Shown piece by piece: positions 2,146 through 19,980 of a DNA stretch of 21,584 nt (position 1 is its first letter; each line of letters opens with the position of its first letter). Source of the DNA: a virus; the IMG/VR virus record IMGVR_UViG_3300001460_000133, positions 6,955 to 28,538 of that record; one strand, given 5' to 3'. The notes under the pieces were generated by a model, which was given only the letters and a program-made list of their open reading frames with translations, was not told where the DNA came from and searched no databases. A program made the position numbers and the translations under genes.

Positions 2146-3774
2146 ATGAGTTTACAAACTTTATTAGAAAGTGCAAATCCCTACCACTCAGTACAGAGTG
2201 ATGCAGCCAGATTATCTGGTAAGTGGGAAAAAACAGGTTTGTTAGAAGGTTTAGGTGGTGCTTCAAAAAGCAACATGGGAATGATTCTAGAAAACCAAGC
2301 AAAACAACTTGTAGTAGAAAGTTCACAAACTGGTGGAGGTGCTGCTTCACAAGGTAACTTTACTGCGGGTATTGGTGGACAATGGGCTGGTGTAGCTCTT
2401 CCATTAGTACGTAAAGTATTTGGACAAATTGCTGCTCAAGAATTCGTATCAGTACAACCAATGAACTTACCTTCAGGTCTAGTATTTTTCTTAGATTTCC
2501 AATATGGAACTGATAAAACTCCATTCTCTGCAGGTTCTTCATTATATGGTGATGCTGCTGCTGATGGATCAACAGATCCTTTCGGTAACACAGCTGATGG
2601 TGGATTATATGGAGCTGGACGTTTTGGATATTCTATCAATAATACATCTTCACAAGCTGCTGGATACGCTTCAGCATCAGCTGACTGGTCAGATGTTAGA
2701 TTTGATTCATCAATTTCTGCTTCCGTAGCAGCTGGTAATTATCTAAAATTCCAAGTACAAAAAACAGCTTTACCTGTAGGAGATTTTGCAGGAGTTAGAG
2801 GATTTTCATTAGTTACTGGTTCTGCAGATACTGTAGTATCTGTACCAGCATATACAACTGATGATAGTACTAACGTATACTTTATTGTATTAGAAGCAAA
2901 TGTTACTGCTGGTGGTGCTGTAAAAGTAAAATACCAATTACAACCAACTGATCAATATAGAGGTGATTTCGAAGATGGAAACAATGCTATCAACGGAAAT
3001 AATACTCCAATTCAAATTCCAGAAATCAATGTACAGATGAAATCATCTGCTATCGTTGCTAAAACTAGAAAATTGAAAGCTGTATGGACGCCAGAATTTG
3101 CACAGGATTTAAATGCATATCATGCATTAGATGCTGAAGCTGAATTAACATCTATCTTAAGTGAGTACATTTCACTAGAAATTGACTTAGAGATTTTAGA
3201 TATGTTATTAGAAAGCGCTGCTGCTGGAAATGAAGTATGGTCTGCTGTAAATAACAGAGCTATTGCTGATAATGGTACTACTGGTGTAATAACAGATCTA
3301 AACTTTTACAATAGTCAAGGACAATGGTTCCAAACATTAGGAACTAAAATCCAAAAACTAAGTAATATCATTCACCAAAGAACATTAAGAGGTGGTGCAA
3401 ACTTCCTAGTATGTTCTCCATCTGTAGGAACTATCCTAGAATCTATTCCAGGATTTGCTGCAGACTCAGATGGTGATGTTTCTAAAGCTACTTACGCTTT
3501 TGGTGTACAGAAAGTAGGTACAATAAACAGTCGTCAGAAAGTTTATAAAAACCCATATATGAAGGAAAACCAAATCCTATTAGGATTTAGAGGATCTCAG
3601 TTCTTAGAAGCTGGTGCCGTATTTGCTCCATATATTCCATTAATTATGACTCCATTAGTATACGATCCAAATACCTTTACTCCAAGAAAAGGCCTATTAA
3701 CTCGTTATGCTAAGAAAATGGTACGTCCAGAATTCTATGGTACAATTAGTATAAATGGTTTAGATACTCTATAG
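2146..3774 (+). CDS. 23: Major capsid protein (T4 gp23-like)
   Basis: This protein forms the hexameric shell of the head. It is 542 aa, near T4 gp23 (521 aa). Residues 1-60 look like the N-terminal propeptide, containing the MILEN element around 46-50 that is common in this family. Two glutamates fit the gp21 cleavage preference ([L/I/V]-x-E): Glu49 and Glu58. Glu58, just before a Gly/Ser-rich stretch, is the better candidate. The conserved capsid block follows: VALPLVRKVFG, VQPMNLPSGLVFF and the adjacent aromatic sequence (about residues 83-125). The C-terminal half carries the family's conserved ALDAEAELT and PYIPLIMTPLVYDP regions. It sits directly after the scaffold gene and ends at a strong terminator. 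No separate gp24-like vertex gene is seen here. Confidence 0.95.
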   Translation: MSLQTLLESANPYHSVQSDAARLSGKWEKTGLLEGLGGASKSNMGMILENQAKQLVVESSQTGGGAASQGNFTAGIGGQWAGVALPLVRKVFGQIAAQEFVSVQPMNLPSGLVFFLDFQYGTDKTPFSAGSSLYGDAAADGSTDPFGNTADGGLYGAGRFGYSINNTSSQAAGYASASADWSDVRFDSSISASVAAGNYLKFQVQKTALPVGDFAGVRGFSLVTGSADTVVSVPAYTTDDSTNVYFIVLEANVTAGGAVKVKYQLQPTDQYRGDFEDGNNAINGNNTPIQIPEINVQMKSSAIVAKTRKLKAVWTPEFAQDLNAYHALDAEAELTSILSEYISLEIDLEILDMLLESAAAGNEVWSAVNNRAIADNGTTGVITDLNFYNSQGQWFQTLGTKIQKLSNIIHQRTLRGGANFLVCSPSVGTILESIPGFAADSDGDVSKATYAFGVQKVGTINSRQKVYKNPYMKENQILLGFRGSQFLEAGAVFAPYIPLIMTPLVYDPNTFTPRKGLLTRYAKKMVRPEFYGTISINGLDTL

Positions 3775-6405: not shown

Positions 6406-7329
6406 ATGCCAAACTTTAAACCATATCCAAAAACACAAAAAGAAATTAGCATGTCTCAGCAAACAGCTTATGACAAAGAAATAGGTAATCCTAATACCCC
6501 AGCTAATCCTAATGAATCTCAAACTGGAATAGATTTTAATAGATCTTCTAAATTAACTTCAAAAGGAGATACATATAAACCTTTTTCTATTGGTATTCAA
6601 GATTTAGATGAAGCTGTTTTTTATTATTTTAATCAAGTAATAAAACCTTTTGTTTATCAAAATGGAGAAAGAAGAGAAGTACCTGTTATCTATGGTAGTC
6701 CCGAAAGGTGGAAATCATTTCAACGTGATGGGTATTATAGAGATGATTCTGGGGCTGTAATGCTACCAATTTTAGTATTAAAAAGAGATACAATAACAAA
6801 AGATAGATCAACATATAATAAATTAGATTCAAACATGCCTAATTTATATGGAACTTTTGGGCAAGGATTTAATCCAAAAAATATGTATTCTAATTTTAAT
6901 TTACTAAACAACAAAAAACCAGTAAAACAATTTGAAACCATTGCCGTTCCCGATTTTGTAAATTTATCATATAGTTGTATTATTCAAACGTATTATATGG
7001 AGCAATTAAATAGAGTTATTGAAGCAGTAGAATATGCCTCAGACTCTTATTGGGGTAATCCTGAACGTTTTAAATTTAAGGCTAGTGTTGATAGTTTTAC
7101 TACTGCTACTGAATTAACACTTAATAAAGATAGACTAGTAAAAGGTACTTTTAATATTAATTTAAGAGGATATCTTATTCCTGATATTATTCAAAAAGAC
7201 TTAAATTCTATTAAAAAATATAATTCAAAAGCTAAGGTAAGTATTACATCTGAAGTTGTATCTAACATAGATGATATAACAAGCCCAACAAATTTCCAAA
7301 ATCCTAATAGTGATGGTAGAATTAGATAA
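6406..7329 (+). CDS. 15: Tail terminator / sheath stabiliser (T4 gp15-like)
   Basis: In T4, gp15 caps the tail tube and sheath and connects the tail to the neck. This 307-aa protein has a disordered N-terminus (residues 1-50, Pro/Asn/Thr-rich). A conserved block follows at about 60-120, containing DEAVFYYFNQVIKPFVYQNG, EVPVIYGSPERWKS and PILVLKR. A second block at about 175-220 has a beta-strand and YMEQLNRVIEAVEY helix, before a final NLRGYLIPDI strand. This layout matches gp15. An internal ATG at 6451 (Met16) could also serve as start, since the first 15 residues are low-complexity; I kept the longer form because its ATG directly abuts the gp14 stop. It is followed by a 52-base gap with a promoter-like element. 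Confidence 0.8.
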   Translation: MPNFKPYPKTQKEISMSQQTAYDKEIGNPNTPANPNESQTGIDFNRSSKLTSKGDTYKPFSIGIQDLDEAVFYYFNQVIKPFVYQNGERREVPVIYGSPERWKSFQRDGYYRDDSGAVMLPILVLKRDTITKDRSTYNKLDSNMPNLYGTFGQGFNPKNMYSNFNLLNNKKPVKQFETIAVPDFVNLSYSCIIQTYYMEQLNRVIEAVEYASDSYWGNPERFKFKASVDSFTTATELTLNKDRLVKGTFNINLRGYLIPDIIQKDLNSIKKYNSKAKVSITSEVVSNIDDITSPTNFQNPNSDGRIR

Positions 7330-9755: not shown

Positions 9756-10244
9756 ATGGCAATATTAGATCCAAACGAAATATTTTTTACAGCTTTTGAG
9801 CCAAAACAAAAGAACAGATTTATTATGTATATAGATGGATTTCCATCGTATATGGTAAAAGGTGTTGGGGCTGTATCATTAACTCAAGGTAGTGTAGCAC
9901 TTAACCATATAAACGTACAACGTTACGTAAAAGGTAAAACTATATGGAATACAATTTCATTTACATTATTTGATCCAATTACTCCATCAGGAGCCCAAGC
10001 TGTAATGGAATGGGTAAGATTACATCACGAATCAGTAACAGGTAGAGATGGGTATTCTGATTTCTATAAAAAAGATTTAACATTTAATGTGTTAGGTCCT
10101 GTAGGTGATATAGTTTCTGAGTGGGTAATTAAAGGAGCAATGATAACAGATGCTTCATTTGGAGATTATTCGTGGGAAGATGCTGATGCTGCTCAAGAAT
10201 TAACATTCACAGTACAACCCGATTATTGTATATTAAACTTCTAA
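9756..10244 (+). CDS. 19: Tail tube protein (T4 gp19-like)
   Basis: Its hexamers stack to form the inner tube through which DNA passes. The 162-aa protein matches T4 gp19 (163 aa) in length. Family features include an N-terminal KQKNRFIMYIDGFPSYMVKG strand pair, a central TLFDPITPSGAQAVMEWV element preceding the helix, a VTGRDGY loop, and a C-terminal beta sheet ending in FTVQPDYC. It follows the sheath and ends at a terminator with a UUCG loop, so sheath and tube form a discrete transcription unit. Confidence 0.95.
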   Translation: MAILDPNEIFFTAFEPKQKNRFIMYIDGFPSYMVKGVGAVSLTQGSVALNHINVQRYVKGKTIWNTISFTLFDPITPSGAQAVMEWVRLHHESVTGRDGYSDFYKKDLTFNVLGPVGDIVSEWVIKGAMITDASFGDYSWEDADAAQELTFTVQPDYCILNF

Positions 10245-10270: not shown

Positions 10271-10298
10271 AGCTTGGCTTCGGTCAAGCTTTTTTTTA
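10271..10298 (+). terminator. Rho-independent terminator with UUCG tetraloop
   Basis: The stem AGCTTGGC (10271-10278) pairs with GTCAAGCT (10283-10290) with one G-T wobble, closing a C(TTCG)G tetraloop, followed by eight or more Ts. It ends the sheath-tube unit. Confidence 0.95.
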
Positions 10299-10344: not shown

Positions 10345-11073
10345 ATGAGTGAATTTAAATTCCCAACTGAAGAAGTAGACTTACCCTCCAAAGGATTATT
10401 ATATCCTAAAGACAATCCTTTATCTAGTGGTAAAGTAGAAATCAAATATATGACAGCTAAGGAAGAAGATATTTTAACTAATCAATCTTATATCCAAAAA
10501 GGAACTGTCTTAGATAAATTACTTGAATCTGTTGTTATAAATAAATCTATAAAATTAAAAGATTTACTTATAGGAGATAAAAATGCTTTATTAATTGCTA
10601 CACGTATTTTAGGGTATGGTAAAAAATATAACGTTATATTTAAAGGAGAAACAATTGATATAGATTTAACTGAATTAGAAAATAAACCATTTGATTCTTC
10701 ATTATTAATTGAAGGAAAAAATGAACTTGCTTATACCTTACCTCATAGTAATACTAAAATTACTTATAAATTACTAAATGGTCATGATAATGATAAAATA
10801 GATTCTGAGTTAAAGGGATTACAGAAAATTCAAAAAGATAATGTGCCTGAACTAACAACAAGATTAAAACATATAATAACCTCAGTTAATGGAGACGAAG
10901 ATTCTAAATCTATTAGAGAATTTGTTGATGGGTATATGCTTGCAAGAGATTCTAGAGCTTTTCGTGAATATTTAAAAAATAATCAACCCGATGTTGATAT
11001 GTCTATTATTTTAGACAGTGGAGAGGAGGTTGAAGTTCCTTTGGGGCTAAACTTTTTTTGGCCTGACGCCTAA
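10345..11073 (+). CDS. 26: gp26-family baseplate hub / tail assembly protein
   Basis: This 242-aa protein belongs to the T4 gp26/gp51 type of baseplate-hub assembly protein. The start, EFKFPTEEVDLPSKGLLYP followed by YMTAKEEDILTNQSYIQKG (residues about 40-60), is highly typical of gp26 in marine T4-like phages. So is the end, EVEVPLGLNFFWPDA. The final codons cross a T7 run (11053-11059), after which another frame stays open for 94 codons (see 11051-11344). Gene position between tail tube and tape measure is that of tail-assembly chaperones in other tailed phages, which bind the tape measure before tube polymerisation. I therefore infer a chaperone-like role alongside the T4-derived name. Its own promoter is probably the ATATGTAT-containing stretch after the 10271-10298 terminator. 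Confidence 0.88.
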   Translation: MSEFKFPTEEVDLPSKGLLYPKDNPLSSGKVEIKYMTAKEEDILTNQSYIQKGTVLDKLLESVVINKSIKLKDLLIGDKNALLIATRILGYGKKYNVIFKGETIDIDLTELENKPFDSSLLIEGKNELAYTLPHSNTKITYKLLNGHDNDKIDSELKGLQKIQKDNVPELTTRLKHIITSVNGDEDSKSIREFVDGYMLARDSRAFREYLKNNQPDVDMSIILDSGEEVEVPLGLNFFWPDA

Positions 11074-11344
11074 TGGAGCACAACAAGCTAGATTAAATTT
11101 ATTTAACCACATACATCAAATTATTTATCATGGTAATGGTGGTTATGATTTCAACACAGTATATAATATACCAATCTGGTTAAGAAAATATATTTACAAA
11201 GAAATTAGAGACTTTAACAATTCAGCATCACAACCACCAGAAGTTACAGGTGAAAAAACATTAATAGGAAAAGATGGTAAGATTAATACCCCAGCATTTG
11301 CTAAAGCATCTCAGCCATATAAAGGAAAAAGCAGCTACAAATAG
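11051..11344 (+). CDS. Frameshift extension of the gp26-like protein (start-less ORF)
   Basis: This frame is +1 relative to the gp26-like gene. It is open from just after a TAA at 11048-11050 to TAG at 11342-11344, and overlaps the last 23 bases of the upstream gene. It has no ATG, GTG or TTG codon. The product looks genuinely coding: GAQQARLNLFNHIHQIIYHG, then a VYNIPIWLRKYIYKEI segment that resembles small proteins near gp26/gp51 in other T4-like phages as I recall them, then a polar tail. The best explanation is ribosomal slippage at the T7 run 11053-11059 (CTA AAC TTT TTT TGG). A +1 slip gives about 332 aa and a -2 slip about 333 aa of fused protein. This mirrors lambda G/GT and its equivalents. 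An indel or assembly error at the homopolymer is the main alternative. Confidence 0.75.
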   Translation, partial: TFFGLTPNGAQQARLNLFNHIHQIIYHGNGGYDFNTVYNIPIWLRKYIYKEIRDFNNSASQPPEVTGEKTLIGKDGKINTPAFAKASQPYKGKSSYK

Positions 11345-11358
11345 TTGCTTTTTTTAAT
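11326..11358 (+). terminator. Rho-independent terminator overlapping the frameshift ORF stop
   Basis: AAAAAGCAGCTA (11326-11337) pairs with TAGTTGCTTTTT (11342-11353) with one G-T wobble and a CAAA loop, then further Ts. The TAG stop of the frameshift ORF begins the 3' arm. The late-promoter-like element starts within a few bases of it. Confidence 0.85.
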
Positions 11359-11381: not shown

Positions 11382-13718
11382 ATGTCTGGATCCGACGAAA
11401 TAAAAAAACAAGCCGAAGCAACAAGGGATTTAAAAAACGAAACCCAAGAAAATCTCAGATATACAAGAGATATTAATAGTGAAATTCGTGATTCCCTTAA
11501 ACTATTAACAGGTGAAAAAGATTTACGTTCATCAACTCTAAAAGCTTTAAAAGAAGCTAATAGTTTAGCTGAAAATCAAGTTGACTTTGCTAAAGCAGGA
11601 TCTAAAGCTTTAATGGACTCTAATGCACTTAGAGAAAAGCAAATAACTTTCCAAAAAAATATTAGTAAATTAACAGCAAATGCTGATGATTTAACTAAAA
11701 AAAGACTAATGGCTCAAAAAGATCTTCAAGCTAATATGTCTAAAATGTCGGAGAAAGACATTAAAAAAGCCCAGCAACAAATAGATCTTTCTCTTAAGTC
11801 TGAAAAAGCACTACAAGGTCAAGCTACAAATCAAAAAGAAAATAAAAAATTATTAGACCAACAAGTATCAGCTGCTGATGAACTTAATAGTTTAGGTAGT
11901 AACAAATTATTTGGGTCTCTTTCGGACATAGCTAAAGCTATTCCTGGTGTTGGTGGTTTAACTAAAGGATTTGACAAAGCAGCAGAGGCCTCTAAAAAGA
12001 TAGGAGCTGATGTATTACAGAAAAAACTAGAAGCTGGAGAAGATGCTTCTCTTAGTATGGGAGAATCGTTATCTGTTGGTTTTAAAGGAGCAGCAGCTGG
12101 AGCAAATGAATTATTAAAAGCTTTTGGACCTATAGCTATTCTGGCAAAAGTATTTCAGGGTATGATGGCAGCAGATAAATCTGCTGGGGAGATAGCTAAA
12201 GGTTTAAATATAAGTACTAAAGAAGCAGGTAAACTATCTGCAGAAATGATATCAACTTCTCAAAGCTCTAAAGAATTAGGAGTTACTTATGAAGGACAAA
12301 AACATGCCCTAAAAGCTATTAATGCTGAATTGGGTACTTCTACAATGATAAGTGCTAAAACCTTAGCTACTTTTTCCCAATTAGAAAAGGTAGCAGGAAT
12401 GACCCAAGAAGAAATGATGGGTATAGGTAAACTATCTTTTGCCACAGGTAAAGATATGAAAAAGATGACAGGAGAATTTTTAGCTCAAGCTAAATCTGCT
12501 TCTTTAAAACAAGGAGTACTACTAAATGAAAAGAAACTAATGGCTGATATATCTAAAGTATCAGCAGCTACAACCTTATCATTAGGTAAAAATCCTAAGG
12601 CAATAGCAAATGCTGTAGCAACAGCTAAAGCTTTGGGTATGGAAATGTCTAAAATAGAAGGTATAGCTGATAGTTTACTTGATTTTGAATCATCCATTGA
12701 AAATGAAATGCAAGCTGAGCTATTATTAGGTAAAGATCTTAATTTAGAAAAGGCAAGAACAGCTGCATTAAATAATGATATGGCTACTGTAGCAGAAGAA
12801 ATTGCTAAACAAGCAGGAAATGCCGCTGATTTTGGAAAACTAGGTAGAATAGAACAACAAGCACTAGCAGCTGCTGTTGGAATGGGTAGAGAAGAATTAG
12901 CTAATATGTTGTATACCCAAGAACAACTACAAGGATTAACAGAAGATGAAGCCACAAAGGCACAAGAAGCATTAGATAAAAGAATTGAAGAAGTAGGAGT
13001 AAAACAAGCTCAACTGGAATTAGAAAAGGATGGTTTTAACGGACTTATAGCTCAAGCTTCTGAAGCAGAAAAAATAAAATTAGCTTCTGAAAAAACAAAT
13101 GAAGCTTTTATGGCGGCAGGTAAAAATCTTTTACCTGTAGTAGAAAAAATGACTGAGTTAGCTACCCTTGCTTCTAGAAATTTAGAATATATGTTAGCGG
13201 CAGTTGCTATATACAAAACATATCAGGCATATCAAAAAGTATCATTATTATTAGAAAAAAGAGGAATAGCTTTAAAAGGCAAGGGAATTGGTAAACAAAT
13301 AGCTACCTTAGCTATAGAGGCAGCAAATTCAGTTGCAAAAATACCGGTAATAGGAGCTGTATTAGCAGTAGCGGCAGGTCTAGGTGCATTTGCTCTTGGT
13401 AAAAGTTTATTAGGAAAAGGCGAATCAGTAGGAGATCTTAACTCACCTGCAAGTGGTATGACACAAGTTTCTACAAAAGAAGGAGGGTTATTTAATTTAT
13501 CTCCAAATGATGATATTGTAGCAGCCCCTGGGGCATCTGCGGCATTAGCAAATGCACAAAGTAGTGGTAAAAGCCCATCTATGCAAAAGTTAGAAGCACT
13601 ACAATCTCAAACAAATGCTTTATTAAGTCAAATACTTTCTAAACAAGGTACTGTACAAATGGATTCCGAAGAGGTAGGTACAGCAGTAGCTATGAATACT
13701 TATGAAATTTCAACTTAA
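11382..13718 (+). CDS. Tail tape measure protein
   Basis: This protein sets tail length and fills the tube lumen before ejection. At 778 aa and about 1.5 angstrom per residue, the known scaling predicts a tail near 115 nm. Residues about 1-170 are Lys/Glu/Gln-rich and strongly helical (coiled coil). Residues about 230-270 and 654-682 are hydrophobic (the latter PVIGAVLAVAAGLGAFALG) and could insert into a host membrane. Residues 270-560 are Ala-rich helices. The C-terminus contains EGGLFNLSPNDDIVAAPG and a second short coiled coil before an Asp/Glu-containing end, a layout common in myophage tape measures. T4 gp29 (590 aa) is the positional counterpart, but I see no sequence match to it. It lies directly after the gp26-like frameshift pair. 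Confidence 0.85.
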   Translation: MSGSDEIKKQAEATRDLKNETQENLRYTRDINSEIRDSLKLLTGEKDLRSSTLKALKEANSLAENQVDFAKAGSKALMDSNALREKQITFQKNISKLTANADDLTKKRLMAQKDLQANMSKMSEKDIKKAQQQIDLSLKSEKALQGQATNQKENKKLLDQQVSAADELNSLGSNKLFGSLSDIAKAIPGVGGLTKGFDKAAEASKKIGADVLQKKLEAGEDASLSMGESLSVGFKGAAAGANELLKAFGPIAILAKVFQGMMAADKSAGEIAKGLNISTKEAGKLSAEMISTSQSSKELGVTYEGQKHALKAINAELGTSTMISAKTLATFSQLEKVAGMTQEEMMGIGKLSFATGKDMKKMTGEFLAQAKSASLKQGVLLNEKKLMADISKVSAATTLSLGKNPKAIANAVATAKALGMEMSKIEGIADSLLDFESSIENEMQAELLLGKDLNLEKARTAALNNDMATVAEEIAKQAGNAADFGKLGRIEQQALAAAVGMGREELANMLYTQEQLQGLTEDEATKAQEALDKRIEEVGVKQAQLELEKDGFNGLIAQASEAEKIKLASEKTNEAFMAAGKNLLPVVEKMTELATLASRNLEYMLAAVAIYKTYQAYQKVSLLLEKRGIALKGKGIGKQIATLAIEAANSVAKIPVIGAVLAVAAGLGAFALGKSLLGKGESVGDLNSPASGMTQVSTKEGGLFNLSPNDDIVAAPGASAALANAQSSGKSPSMQKLEALQSQTNALLSQILSKQGTVQMDSEEVGTAVAMNTYEIST

Positions 13719-15957: not shown

Positions 15958-18900
15958 ATGACAGGAAATATAATTGGATCACCAGTTGATGGGTTTGTAA
16001 AGAATGAAATTGATAATAGACAACAGATATTTGGTTCTGGGCTTTCATCTACTAGGGGCCCAGAAATGCAAAATTATTTGAATAATAGAACGGCTTGGAT
16101 AAAATTAGCATCTTCTATTACAATCAATAAAAAAGGAATTTTTAGACTTCCTGATGGATTAGATAGTAGCATGTCAGGTAACACTTTAGCTAAAACTGCT
16201 GTGTTATTTAATGGTCTTTCTTTTACACGAGATAAAAAACTAAAAAGTGGCGGAACAACCACAACAATAAACTCAAGATCAGGAGTTAATTTAAATAATA
16301 CCTTAATTAATAATAATGCTTATGGTTTTGGGGGCTCTGAAAATCAGGGAATAGTCCCAATGCCAGGTATATCTAATTTAAATGTTACAACCAAAAACAA
16401 CGGTTCTATCCAAACTGCTAAAATAAAAATTACAGCATATAATAGATTTCAATTTGAATTAATTGAATTACTATATCTTAGATTAGGATATACTATGTTA
16501 TTAGAATGGGGGTGGGATAAAAGATTTGTACCTTCTAAAGATTTTGATTTAAATAATGATGGTGTAATAGATATAAATGATGGTTTTATAGAAGATATAG
16601 GAAATACTTTTTTAGAAGATAGTTGGTTTTCTGATGATATTAAAACCCATAGTGCTGCTTTAAAAAAGATTCAAGGATATAGAGAAACATATAATGGAAA
16701 TTATGATGGTTTTTGTGGTAAAGTTAAAAATTTTAGCTGGGGTTTTTCAAAAGATGGTTCATATGACATTACTATAGATTTAATTAGTTTAGGAGATGTT
16801 GTAGAATCTTTAAGAGCAAACGCTCCTGCTACAGAAGAAGATAAAAAAAGAATATATCAAATAACTAAAAATTTAGACTCAACTTTAAAAGAAGATTCTT
16901 CTTTAGTTGCGGGGGCTGGAAACGATAAGATTTCAAATTATTTATTTTCAACGTTAGTTAATGTTGGAAATGAATCTTTTTTTAATAGTAAGTCAAGCCC
17001 TTATTTTGATATTTCATTAGGTGCTAAAGCAGCAGCAACTGTAGTAGGAACACAAACTAATGTTAGCTATCCATACGATAAAATAGATGGAGATTATAGA
17101 TACTATGTTACTTTTGGAGAATTAGTAAGATTAGTTGAAACCTTAATAGTTCCTAATTTAAATAAATCTAAACAAATAACGTTTGATATAGACGAAGAAA
17201 AAACAATATTCCATTGTAAACCACTTTTATTCCCTAATGATCCTAGAATATGCATTACTAATATGCTCCCCCATTGGGCTCTTTATTATGATTATTATGG
17301 TAGTTATTGCCACAAACCTAAATGGGCTACTAATATGAAAAGAAGTTTTACTTCTATAGAATCGGGCAAAGCATCAGAAAGGGAGGATTTTAAAACTTAT
17401 TTTACTTATTATAAGATATATAATTTATTTATAAATTTTAACTTTATATTTGATGCTTTAAAATCTAATACTGATAAACAAGGAAATATTAGTATATTTA
17501 AATTTTTTCAAAAAATATGTGACGGAATTAATGAGAGTTTTATGAATTCTCCTAAATTAGAACCTCTTATAAAGGAAGATAAAACAATTACTTTTATAGA
17601 TAGAAACGCTACTCCTAATTTAAAATCTTATGCCGATAAGTTAGGTATTTCTACACGAGAAACTGCAACATTTGAGGTTATGGGGTTTGATAACAGATCT
17701 AAAGTTAAAAAAGGTTCTTTTCTTCAAGAAGTTAAGTTTAATACTAAAATAACTCCAAAATTAGCTAATCAAATTGCTATAGGAGCAACTTCAACTGGGA
17801 CTTCTTTAACTGAAAGTTCAACAGGGTTAAAAAATTGGAATAAAGGATTAGTAGATAGATTCCAAAAAGATGTAACTACTGATGATGAAACAGCAGTAAC
17901 AGCTGTAACTACTGAAGTTGTTGAAGTGGCTGGGGTAACTACAACTACAACTACGAATGAAGAAACTGGTGAATCTACTTCTTCTACTATGACTAAATAT
18001 ACAGGTACTAATAATAGATATAAGACATCGGGTGGTGTTGCCTATGAAACAGCTGAAACTTTCCCTTATAAATTTATAATTCCTTATGAGACTGGTCCTT
18101 TTAGATTTAAATTAAATACCGGTTTTATGAGTAATGAAGAATTTGGTATAGTAGTTACTGTAGATACCGCAGGTAAGGTTCTATCAGTAGACAGAACACC
18201 GGAAAGTATTATTGGTGTTGGTGCAAATACAAAATTGGGAAAAACATATACATCACTACATCCAAGAGCAGGTGAAAAGATGGCAGAATTAAGGTCAATA
18301 CTAATAGAAGGTAAAACAGTAAGTAATATATTAGGAGCTGGTTCAAGTGCTAACTCTGGTGAGTTAAAAAGATTATTTAATATTGCTTTACAGGCAGAAT
18401 TTGATGTTTTATTTGGTGTTTCCACCACTGTTACTAGTGGTGAAGAACAAAATGCAGTGTCAGATAAAGGAATAACTTTAAGTGTTGAGGAAGGATATGA
18501 TGCTGAAGCTGATTTAAATGGTGATGGGATGATAACTACTGAAGAAAGAACAGCTAGATTAGCATTAGATGATGTAGAAGCAAAACGTACTAAAGAAGAA
18601 TTATCTTATGCTTCTAGTAATTTAGCTACATATATGATGATTTTATTTGGAGGAAAGTATGGGGCAGTAAATGTAGATTCATCTAAAATGAGATATTTTC
18701 CTATGCCCTCAAATGCTAAATTTTATAAAATTGGAAAATCTGCTTACGAATCTTATATAGTTTCGGAACAGGAATCCCAATATGTAAATAGTGGAATAGT
18801 TAGTAATAGTATAGGCTTTATTCCTTTAGATTTTTCTCTAACAGCAGATGGTCTTTCAGGTTTAAAACACTTTCAAAAAATAAAAATTAATCAAAGTTTT

Positions 18901-19980
18901 TTACCTAAAAATTATGGTGAAACCTTAAGTTTTTTAGTTAAAGGATTAAGCCATAAAATAGATAGTAGTGGATGGACAACACAAATTAATACTTTATCAA
19001 TTCCAGAAATGAACAAACAAGCTGCAATCCCATCTCCACCACCTGCACCCCAAGAACAAAGTTTTAGTACGGATGGTGATTCTAACTATGTTGGAACTGA
19101 TGTTGTATATAACCCAGAAATTACTGACCCAAGTAGTAGTTTACTTAAAACAATAACTAGTGGTTATTCTTTAATACGAACTGAAAAAGCTATCTATAGA
19201 TCTGGACCTAAAAAAGGACAAGAAATCCCATGGCAAGCAAGACATGCTAAAAAAATAAAAAGGTTAACTAATGGTATAACTGATGAATTAATATATTTCC
19301 CAGAAAAAACTACTAAAAGAGCTGTAGTAGTTCATTTTACAGCAGGGTGGTCTCGTGGGGATAATGCTAAGGGTTCAGTTAAAGGTATGGTTAATGGTGA
19401 TGTAAGTTTTCCTTTAGGTGTTCATTATTTTATCACAATGGGAGGTTTTATAGAAAATGTATTCCATGAAGATTATTGGTCTAACCATTGTAGTGTAGGT
19501 GATAATGATAAAGGAAGTATTGGTATAGAATTACAAAACCTAGGATATTTTAATAAAAAGGGTAATGGTTACTACCGAAAGGGTAATAGTTATCTTATTC
19601 CTTCAAAAATAGCAAAATATGGTGGAAAGGGATATGAATTGGGAGATACACCCGTTACAACTGGTACACCGGATGATTATGTATATGATTTTGGCTCTGG
19701 TAGAGGATTTAAAGGATACCAATATTATCATAAACATTCAACAAAACAAATACAAGCATTAGAATCTTTACTTAAAGGTATAAAACAACGCCACCCAGCA
19801 GTTAACTTAAAATATAATGGACCAGCAATGTTTCCTGCAAAAACTCCAAAAAACCCTAAAAGGCCTACAGCAAAAGGAAAATTTAGTATCCCTGGGATTT
19901 ATACTCATGGAAGTAATTATAGTAAAGGTGATACATATCCTGACCCTAATCTAGTAGCAATGTTAAAAAAATTAGGTTAA
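15958..19980 (+). CDS. Baseplate hub with C-terminal N-acetylmuramoyl-L-alanine amidase
   Basis: This 1340-aa fusion is probably the central hub and the peptidoglycan-cutting tip (roles of T4 gp27 and gp5). Residues 1 to about 640 contain gp27-like hub blocks: GIVPMPGISNLNVTTKNNG, a TAYNRFQFELIELLYLRLGY helix and NFSWGFSKDGSYDITIDLISL. Thr-rich linker sequence spans about 642-690. Hub-like beta sequence resumes to about 1015 (SGLKHFQKIKINQSFLPKNY), then a Pro-rich linker (1024-1035). The C-terminal domain (about 1095-1340) is an Amidase_2-type zinc amidase: VVVHFTAG with His1126, GIELQN with Glu1191, and THGSNYSKGD with His1317, Lys1323 and Asp1325 match the AmpD ligand/catalytic set. Two perfect EF-hand loops lie at 197-208 and 852-863. 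T4 instead uses a lysozyme in gp5. Its stop overlaps the next ATG by one base. Confidence 0.82.
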   Translation: MTGNIIGSPVDGFVKNEIDNRQQIFGSGLSSTRGPEMQNYLNNRTAWIKLASSITINKKGIFRLPDGLDSSMSGNTLAKTAVLFNGLSFTRDKKLKSGGTTTTINSRSGVNLNNTLINNNAYGFGGSENQGIVPMPGISNLNVTTKNNGSIQTAKIKITAYNRFQFELIELLYLRLGYTMLLEWGWDKRFVPSKDFDLNNDGVIDINDGFIEDIGNTFLEDSWFSDDIKTHSAALKKIQGYRETYNGNYDGFCGKVKNFSWGFSKDGSYDITIDLISLGDVVESLRANAPATEEDKKRIYQITKNLDSTLKEDSSLVAGAGNDKISNYLFSTLVNVGNESFFNSKSSPYFDISLGAKAAATVVGTQTNVSYPYDKIDGDYRYYVTFGELVRLVETLIVPNLNKSKQITFDIDEEKTIFHCKPLLFPNDPRICITNMLPHWALYYDYYGSYCHKPKWATNMKRSFTSIESGKASEREDFKTYFTYYKIYNLFINFNFIFDALKSNTDKQGNISIFKFFQKICDGINESFMNSPKLEPLIKEDKTITFIDRNATPNLKSYADKLGISTRETATFEVMGFDNRSKVKKGSFLQEVKFNTKITPKLANQIAIGATSTGTSLTESSTGLKNWNKGLVDRFQKDVTTDDETAVTAVTTEVVEVAGVTTTTTTNEETGESTSSTMTKYTGTNNRYKTSGGVAYETAETFPYKFIIPYETGPFRFKLNTGFMSNEEFGIVVTVDTAGKVLSVDRTPESIIGVGANTKLGKTYTSLHPRAGEKMAELRSILIEGKTVSNILGAGSSANSGELKRLFNIALQAEFDVLFGVSTTVTSGEEQNAVSDKGITLSVEEGYDAEADLNGDGMITTEERTARLALDDVEAKRTKEELSYASSNLATYMMILFGGKYGAVNVDSSKMRYFPMPSNAKFYKIGKSAYESYIVSEQESQYVNSGIVSNSIGFIPLDFSLTADGLSGLKHFQKIKINQSFLPKNYGETLSFLVKGLSHKIDSSGWTTQINTLSIPEMNKQAAIPSPPPAPQEQSFSTDGDSNYVGTDVVYNPEITDPSSSLLKTITSGYSLIRTEKAIYRSGPKKGQEIPWQARHAKKIKRLTNGITDELIYFPEKTTKRAVVVHFTAGWSRGDNAKGSVKGMVNGDVSFPLGVHYFITMGGFIENVFHEDYWSNHCSVGDNDKGSIGIELQNLGYFNKKGNGYYRKGNSYLIPSKIAKYGGKGYELGDTPVTTGTPDDYVYDFGSGRGFKGYQYYHKHSTKQIQALESLLKGIKQRHPAVNLKYNGPAMFPAKTPKNPKRPTAKGKFSIPGIYTHGSNYSKGDTYPDPNLVAMLKKLG
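16546..16581 (+). other. EF-hand-type calcium loop in the hub protein (first)
   Basis: Encodes DLNNDGVIDIND (residues 197-208). Positions 1, 3, 5, 6, 8, 9 and 12 carry D, N, D, G, I, D and D, satisfying the EF-hand loop pattern. It sits in an insertion between hub strands, right after LEWGWDKRF. Confidence 0.75.
18511..18546 (+). other. EF-hand-type calcium loop in the hub protein (second)
   Basis: Encodes DLNGDGMITTEE (residues 852-863), with D, N, D, G, I and the terminal E at canonical positions. It is followed by a charged helix (RTARLALDDVEAKR), as in real EF-hands. Confidence 0.8.

Follow-up and report, generated by a model that had tools for sequence, protein, structure and literature searches.

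A probable programmed +1 ribosomal frameshift in the gp26-like, putative tail-assembly chaperone locus of far-T4 phages

Frameshifted chaperone genes and the gp26-like locus

Frameshifting between G and T has been regarded as conserved in long-tailed phages "except T4", with a shift of -1, -2 or +1 depending on the phage and a +1 shift considered "very likely" for the chaperone of the halovirus HSTV-2, as summarized in a 2016 review (PMC5009743). In a review of the T4 tail, gp26 and gp51 were described as hub assembly chaperones, gp51 being essential and of unknown function (PMC3004832). The tail-assembly chaperone genes of T4-like phages were named by Vladimirov, Gautam, and Davidson (2022, Virology 566:9-15; as represented in PMC10885494 and PMC12846349), and according to PMC10885494, which cites that paper, the short and the fused chaperone can be encoded by separate genes in T4-like phages. 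In addition, poly-T signals for -1 slippage have been described in T4-like chaperone genes (PMC12846349). Since gp26 and gp51 were named as tail-assembly chaperones in 2022, the identity of the chaperone family is known and not new, and neither is -1 slippage in T4-like phages. As for gp51 in marine phages, that of cyanophages and a marine vibriophage was reported to be without about 200 N-terminal residues, the available part of the report drawing no link to gp26 (Sullivan, 2010; PMC3037559). In the open-access literature, no report was found of a +1 version in the far-T4 group or of its Shine-Dalgarno (SD) and hairpin elements, and the conserved +1 version with a composite signal described below for this group is apparently new.

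The locus studied here lies in a 21,584-nt stretch (hereafter the window; positions 6,955 to 28,538 of virus record IMGVR_UViG_3300001460_000133). The major capsid protein of the window (2146-3774), a member of the T4 gp23 family, was nearest to that of Flavobacterium phage immuto (58%) and also near those of Microcystis phage Mel-JY01 and Rhodothermus RM378; on account of these closest relatives, the phage was placed in the far-T4 group. The window also encodes a tail protein of 1340 aa (15958-19980) with an amidase-like C-terminal domain (PF01510, E 4e-5, just under the curated cut-off).

All features of the locus itself are on the plus strand. The gp26-like gene (10345-11073; 242 aa), which matched phrog_150 "baseplate hub" with an E of 9e-8, is proposed to encode the short isoform of a tail-assembly chaperone. 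Upstream of it lies the tail tube gene (9756-10244; phrog_4542, E 2.5e-23), and downstream a probable tape measure gene (11382-13718), for which the family search gave no match of its own. The interval between tail tube and tape measure, a typical chaperone location to which the earlier note had assigned the locus, was thus recognized from the profile match on the tube side, and from the position together with the tape measure annotation of the immuto counterpart on the other. Terminator-like hairpins were detected by a terminator scan both between the tail tube and gp26-like genes (10271-10290) and over the end of the second reading frame, ORF2, where the hairpin closes the unit (11324-11355) and agrees with the terminator reported there in that note; because such hairpins flank both sides, the gp26-like gene and ORF2 may constitute a unit of their own.

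As in lambda gpG/gpGT, the locus combines this position with predicted short and long isoforms and a start-less second domain, whereas the lambda frameshift is -1 and the one proposed here is +1. The T4-like chaperones gp26 and gp51 (PF12322, phrog_150) belong to the same N-domain family and occur in the same tail gene block; T4 has two genes for them, one short and one long, whereas both forms would here be produced from one locus by the +1 shift. The resemblance of the locus to lambda G/GT follows from the fact that T4 gp26 and gp51 share one Pfam family. Likewise, the short chaperone gene of Vandenendeviridae and Andersonviridae (phage Adele, PMC12846349) ends, as is the case here, in a T-rich slip site, but the shift there is -1, at a GTTTTT motif.

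Judged from sequence comparison, this locus is best explained, and very probably correctly, by a programmed +1 ribosomal frameshift yielding a long tail-assembly chaperone. Most ribosomes would terminate at 11071-11073 and release the 242-aa short form, while a fraction would slip by +1 at TTT TTT TGG C and read on into ORF2, yielding a fusion of 332 aa. If the two forms work as gpG and gpGT do in lambda, the short one would coat the tape measure protein, and tail tube subunits would be recruited by the ORF2 domain. The earlier note had proposed that a programmed frameshift joins the gp26-like protein and ORF2, a proposal strengthened by the relatives, among which 255/257 have ORF2 in the +1 frame. 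It had also taken the pair for the hidden T4-type equivalent of G/GT; the relatives support the equivalence, although the family had already been named in 2022. The significance of the locus is that G/GT-type frameshifting would be extended to the large far-T4 group, in which the second chaperone ORF is unannotated or recorded as a separate hypothetical protein.

The start-less reading frame and its relatives

The zero-frame 3' end of the gp26-like gene reads CTA AAC TTT TTT TGG CCT GAC GCC TAA, its stop codon occupying 11071-11073, and both this ending and the frames were as the earlier note had described them. In the +1 frame, a TAA at 11048-11050 is followed by an open stretch through 11341 and then by TAG at 11342-11344. 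ORF2 (11060-11344) thereby comprises 94 codons plus TAG and, in the window, contains zero ATG, GTG or TTG codons, again in keeping with that description. When 95-codon sequences of the same composition were shuffled, only 0.02% of the trials were stop-free. Furthermore, the median dN/dS of ORF2 was 0.165, indicating purifying selection, versus 1.2 and 1.7 for the other two frames of the same stretch, which substantiated the coding content previously thought plausible from the translation. The predicted fusion, or long isoform (10345-11344; 332 aa), reads ...LNFF/GLTPNGAQQAR..., the slash marking the slip. In alignments of 52 sequences, W239 and P240 of the zero frame and F-G-L of the +1 frame, which are encoded by the same bases, were invariant.

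Besides the window-like junctions, further junctions were found by scans with Microcystis phage, Flavobacterium phage, and jumbo-phage homologues, giving 255 analysed junctions (79 window-like, 79 Microcystis-like, 80 Flavobacterium-like, and 17 jumbo-like). ORF2 was open in the +1 frame in all 255 junctions of these four sequence groups. A scan with a Streptococcus phage protein returned just one remote locus. In Rhodothermus RM378, Streptococcus SagM-GXN1, and Listeria LIS04, cultured phages that are more distantly related, a +1-frame ORF also overlaps the end of the gp26-like gene. In the records of immuto (L081:4839-4949) and Mel-JY01 (L082:4737-4973), a portion of ORF2 is entered as a hypothetical protein in its own right, and these annotations look like misannotated pieces of the fusion.

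Among the relatives with a complete junction, the +1-frame overlap was kept in 255/257, and the other two start ORF2 at its own ATG, so that a normal start, which the earlier note had regarded as evidence against the frameshift, occurs in 2/257. In both exceptions (L387 and L392), ORF2 follows downstream in a different frame and has its ATG 2 or 5 nt past the stop codon of gp26; L387 no longer has the slip site or the hairpin, and L392 retains the SD-like element along with a TTC CTT TGG remnant. They represent natural conversions of a frameshift into separate genes. Because these two carry an ATG-started ORF2, the ORF2 domain is evidently able to exist as a separate protein, and the fusion is not universal. 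They also lend some weight to the reading in which ORF2 is throughout translated on its own, through re-initiation or a non-standard start codon, as do the cyanophage ATG 5 nt past the gp26 stop and the TTG or GTG codons that occur within the open stretch of many relatives. We consider this reading highly improbable: the window and 53 relatives (54 junctions) have no ATG, GTG or TTG from the upstream stop to codon +25, the positions of start codons in ORF2 are not conserved elsewhere, in some variants a TTG is followed by a stop, and the invariant +1 residues F-G-L begin right at the slip site. A non-standard CTG start (in GGC CTG) was likewise rejected, this codon being unconserved in the Microcystis-like group. 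The comparison of the junction across relatives that had been suggested in the earlier note thus showed the T-run and the relative frame to be conserved and the start to be absent or unconserved.

As for the protein family, the gp26-like protein of the window itself fell below the Pfam match level for PF12322 (T4_baseplate), and 33 of 52 aligned relatives matched this family, the best with an E of 8.9e-22. T4 gp26 and T4 gp51 both match PF12322, gp51 extending C-terminally past the shared domain. Comparison by hhalign connected the window-type ORF2 with the cyanophage ORF2 (probability 96.6%, E 7e-10) and the cyanophage ORF2 with the gp51 C-terminus of T4 (96.7%, E 4e-10); the direct comparison of ORF2 with T4 gp51 was weak (E 0.05), and single T4 gp26 or gp51 sequences against the family profiles gave nothing significant. 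These links, by way of the cyanophage ORFs, suggest that ORF2 is a relative of the C-terminus of T4 gp51.

The gp26-like protein and ORF2 were modelled as two separate chains. The AlphaFold model of the former had a pLDDT of 92.9, and its fold matched "baseplate hub assembly protein T4-like" with an E of 1.7e-13. No sequence relative was found in the PDB, and in a PDB fold search with the gp26-like model, chains A and B of 2ob9, the HK97 tail-assembly chaperone, took ranks 1 and 2 with a non-significant E of 0.77 and a TMt of 0.45. The model of ORF2 predicts a helix, a short helix, and a helix followed by a low-confidence tail; its fold matches were weak (E >1) and included a tape measure chaperone and a hub assembly catalyst.

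A related layout is seen in cyanophages, the pelagiphage, KVP40, phiW-14, and phiM12, in which gp26 is followed, as here, by a small overlapping homologue of the gp51 C-terminus. In P-SSM2, HTVC008M, and phiM12, the part of phrog_150 that corresponds to the gp51 C-terminus matched a short -1-frame ORF overlapping the gp26 end, and the same layout of gp26 plus a -1-frame short ORF was seen in KVP40 and phiW-14. The ORF2 frame of all these phages is -1, at a T-run that reads T TTT TTC or resembles it and mostly with a nearby ATG, whereas that of the far-T4 group is +1; in 80 P-SSM2-like contigs, T TTT TTC stands at the gp26 end and the ATG is 5 nt past the stop. In P-SSM2, HTVC008M, KVP40, phiW-14, phiM12, and L217-L296, either a -1 frameshift or separate initiation may operate. 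The arrangement offers a reading of the cyanophage gp51 puzzle, namely, that the missing ~200 residues correspond to gp26.

T4 gp51 looks like a gp26-type domain joined to an ORF2-type domain, which fits a duplication replacing the frameshift. A broader scenario, in which the composite +1 signal goes together with a switch within the T4 supergroup (+1 in far-T4 phages, -1 in cyanophages) followed by duplication into gp26 and gp51 in T4, is possible but doubtful. In T4, gp26 and gp51 are divergently placed (L088:4803-6229), and Campylobacter phage CP81 (L097, NC_042112.1:23074-24200) carries two adjacent same-strand PF12322-like copies, possibly another short/long pair.

Slip site and direction of the shift

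The slip site TTT TTT TGG C (11053-11062) includes a run of seven T (T7; 11053-11059). TTTTTTTGGCCTGAC was present in 81/81 sequences, that is, the window and 80 independent viral contigs (protein identity 66-92%), and T7GGCCTGAC was common to the same 81/81, the +1 frame being open wherever the contig was long enough. Because T7GGCCTGAC is identical in all of them, an error for 6T or 8T, the possibility that the earlier note had wished to see checked, is very unlikely. Homopolymers are prone to sequencing error, and such an error could in principle have split a single gene into two ORFs; as the arrangement recurs in hundreds of independent assemblies, including cultured-phage records and sites without a long run, the probability of this explanation is close to nil.

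The window clade has zero slip-site variants, and the other groups provided the variation from which the direction of the shift could be judged. The slip codons of the 255 junctions were TTT TTT TGG (195), TTT CTT TGG (35), TTC TTT TGG (14), TTT CTA TGG (4), CTT TTT TGG (3), TTT TTT TAC (2), TTT CTT TAC (1), and TTT CTA TTC (1), with YTT followed by T in 250/255 and CTA in 5/255. Re-pairing by +1 is possible at every variant: YTT->TTT in general, and at TTT CTA TGG (4) and TTT CTA TTC (1) only if the slip occurs one codon earlier, TTT->TTC. The peptidyl-tRNA would thus shift one base forward, YTT->TTT, with TGG waiting in the A site; in the window, the P-site tRNA-Phe would move from TTT to TTT and the next codon read would be GGC.

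The same fusion could be generated by -2 ribosomal slippage, as documented for phage Mu (PMC5009743), with NFFFGLT instead of NFFGLT and hence one extra residue; for phages with the T7-type run, the predicted junction peptides are NFFGLTPNGAQQAR for +1 and NFFFGLTPNGAQQAR for -2. The P-site tRNA would indeed re-pair perfectly two bases back within the T7 run of the window. At TTC TTT TGG (14) and TTT CTA TGG (4), however, -2 re-pairing is impossible and the frame is unchanged, and -2 slippage was rejected as the family-wide mechanism on these variants; we regard it as an improbable account of the locus. The earlier note had left the choice between +1 and -2 open, and these junctions narrow it to +1.

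Transcriptional slippage, in which RNA polymerase would lose one U or add two on the T7 run with the aid of the adjoining hairpin, finds its support within the window's clade, where the run is invariant and a terminator scan picked the 11034-11048 hairpin together with the T-run. Across the family, a long homopolymer is not conserved: in at least 58/255 relatives, the run is broken or shortened (TTT CTT, TTC TTT, CTT TTT, TTT CTA) with the arrangement retained. These broken runs exclude transcriptional slippage as a general mechanism, and it was rejected family-wide on the slip-site variants; moreover, the SD-like element points to ribosomes. Although a contribution within the window's clade is possible, this explanation as a whole is very improbable.

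The upstream Shine-Dalgarno-like element and hairpin

Under the preferred +1 ribosomal mechanism, the slip is probably made more efficient by an SD-like sequence and by a hairpin refolding at the mRNA exit. The SD-like element GGAGAGGAGGT is located at 11020-11030, between positions -33 and -23 relative to the first T of the slip site. The occurrence of GGAGAGGAGGU exceeded the expectation from synonymous codons strongly, and that of the hairpin by the slip site moderately. The mean anti-SD energy of the window clade was -11.6 kcal/mol versus -1.9 for synonymous recodings, and anti-SD pairing was enriched at -34 to -28 in all four groups. In nearly every window-clade sequence, the glutamate at the SD-like element is encoded by GAG, whereas the GAA:GAG usage of the window is 387:45.

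The small hairpin AGTTCC-TTT-GGGGCT (11034-11048) adjoins the slip site on its 5' side and, together with the T7 run, gives the junction a weak-terminator look in the window's clade. Its MFE of -5.0 in the window corresponded to a p of 0.012 against the synonymous null and 0.21 against the GC-matched one. When stability was compared with recodings by the codon usage of the locus, Fisher p-values were 4e-10 (window group), 1e-4 (jumbo-like), 1e-6 (Microcystis-like), and 0.01 (Flavobacterium-like), and against GC-matched controls 7e-4, 0.006, 0.048, and 0.10 (not significant), respectively, all of which are optimistic because the representatives are related. The stem derives partly from a Pro-Ile-Gly protein motif; its sequence and register vary from group to group, evidence against a simple conservation of the stem sequence. 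No downstream stimulatory structure was found, RNAalifold being empty and the mean z about 0 to -0.7.

The closest described signal is that of prfB (RF2), in which a P-site CUU or UUU moves to UUU with an upstream SD-like sequence, as proposed here, and whose SD-assisted +1 frameshifting occurs in Bacteroidota (PMC8710568). The YTT_T slip with +1 re-pairing is of the prfB type. In prfB, a UGA stop stands in the A site and the SD is 3 nt from the slip codon, whereas here the A-site codon is UGG, rarely UAC or UUC, and the SD-like element lies ~25 nt upstream, ending ~23 nt before the T-run, with the hairpin between. In a 70S system, upstream hairpins adjoining the slip site were reported to stimulate +1 and attenuate -1 slippage, with the effect seen at CUUUGA only without RF2 (PMC6321510). 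We infer that the hairpin shortens the mRNA path between the distant SD and the slip site. In such a composite signal, the intervening hairpin would bring the SD close to where the slip occurs, and the mRNA would be pushed forward jointly by anti-SD pairing and the hairpin in its refolded state. The family supplies hundreds of natural +1 site variants, one group of which comes from a culturable Flavobacterium phage, and the effects of the SD and the hairpin are therefore directly testable.

In RNAalifold predictions for window positions 11020-11059, obtained for more than one group, the purine stretch and the T-run pair with each other and enclose the inner hairpin. As the ribosome occupies the T-run at the slip, this pairing was set aside as part of the slip signal, and it may possibly act as a regulator of approaching ribosomes.
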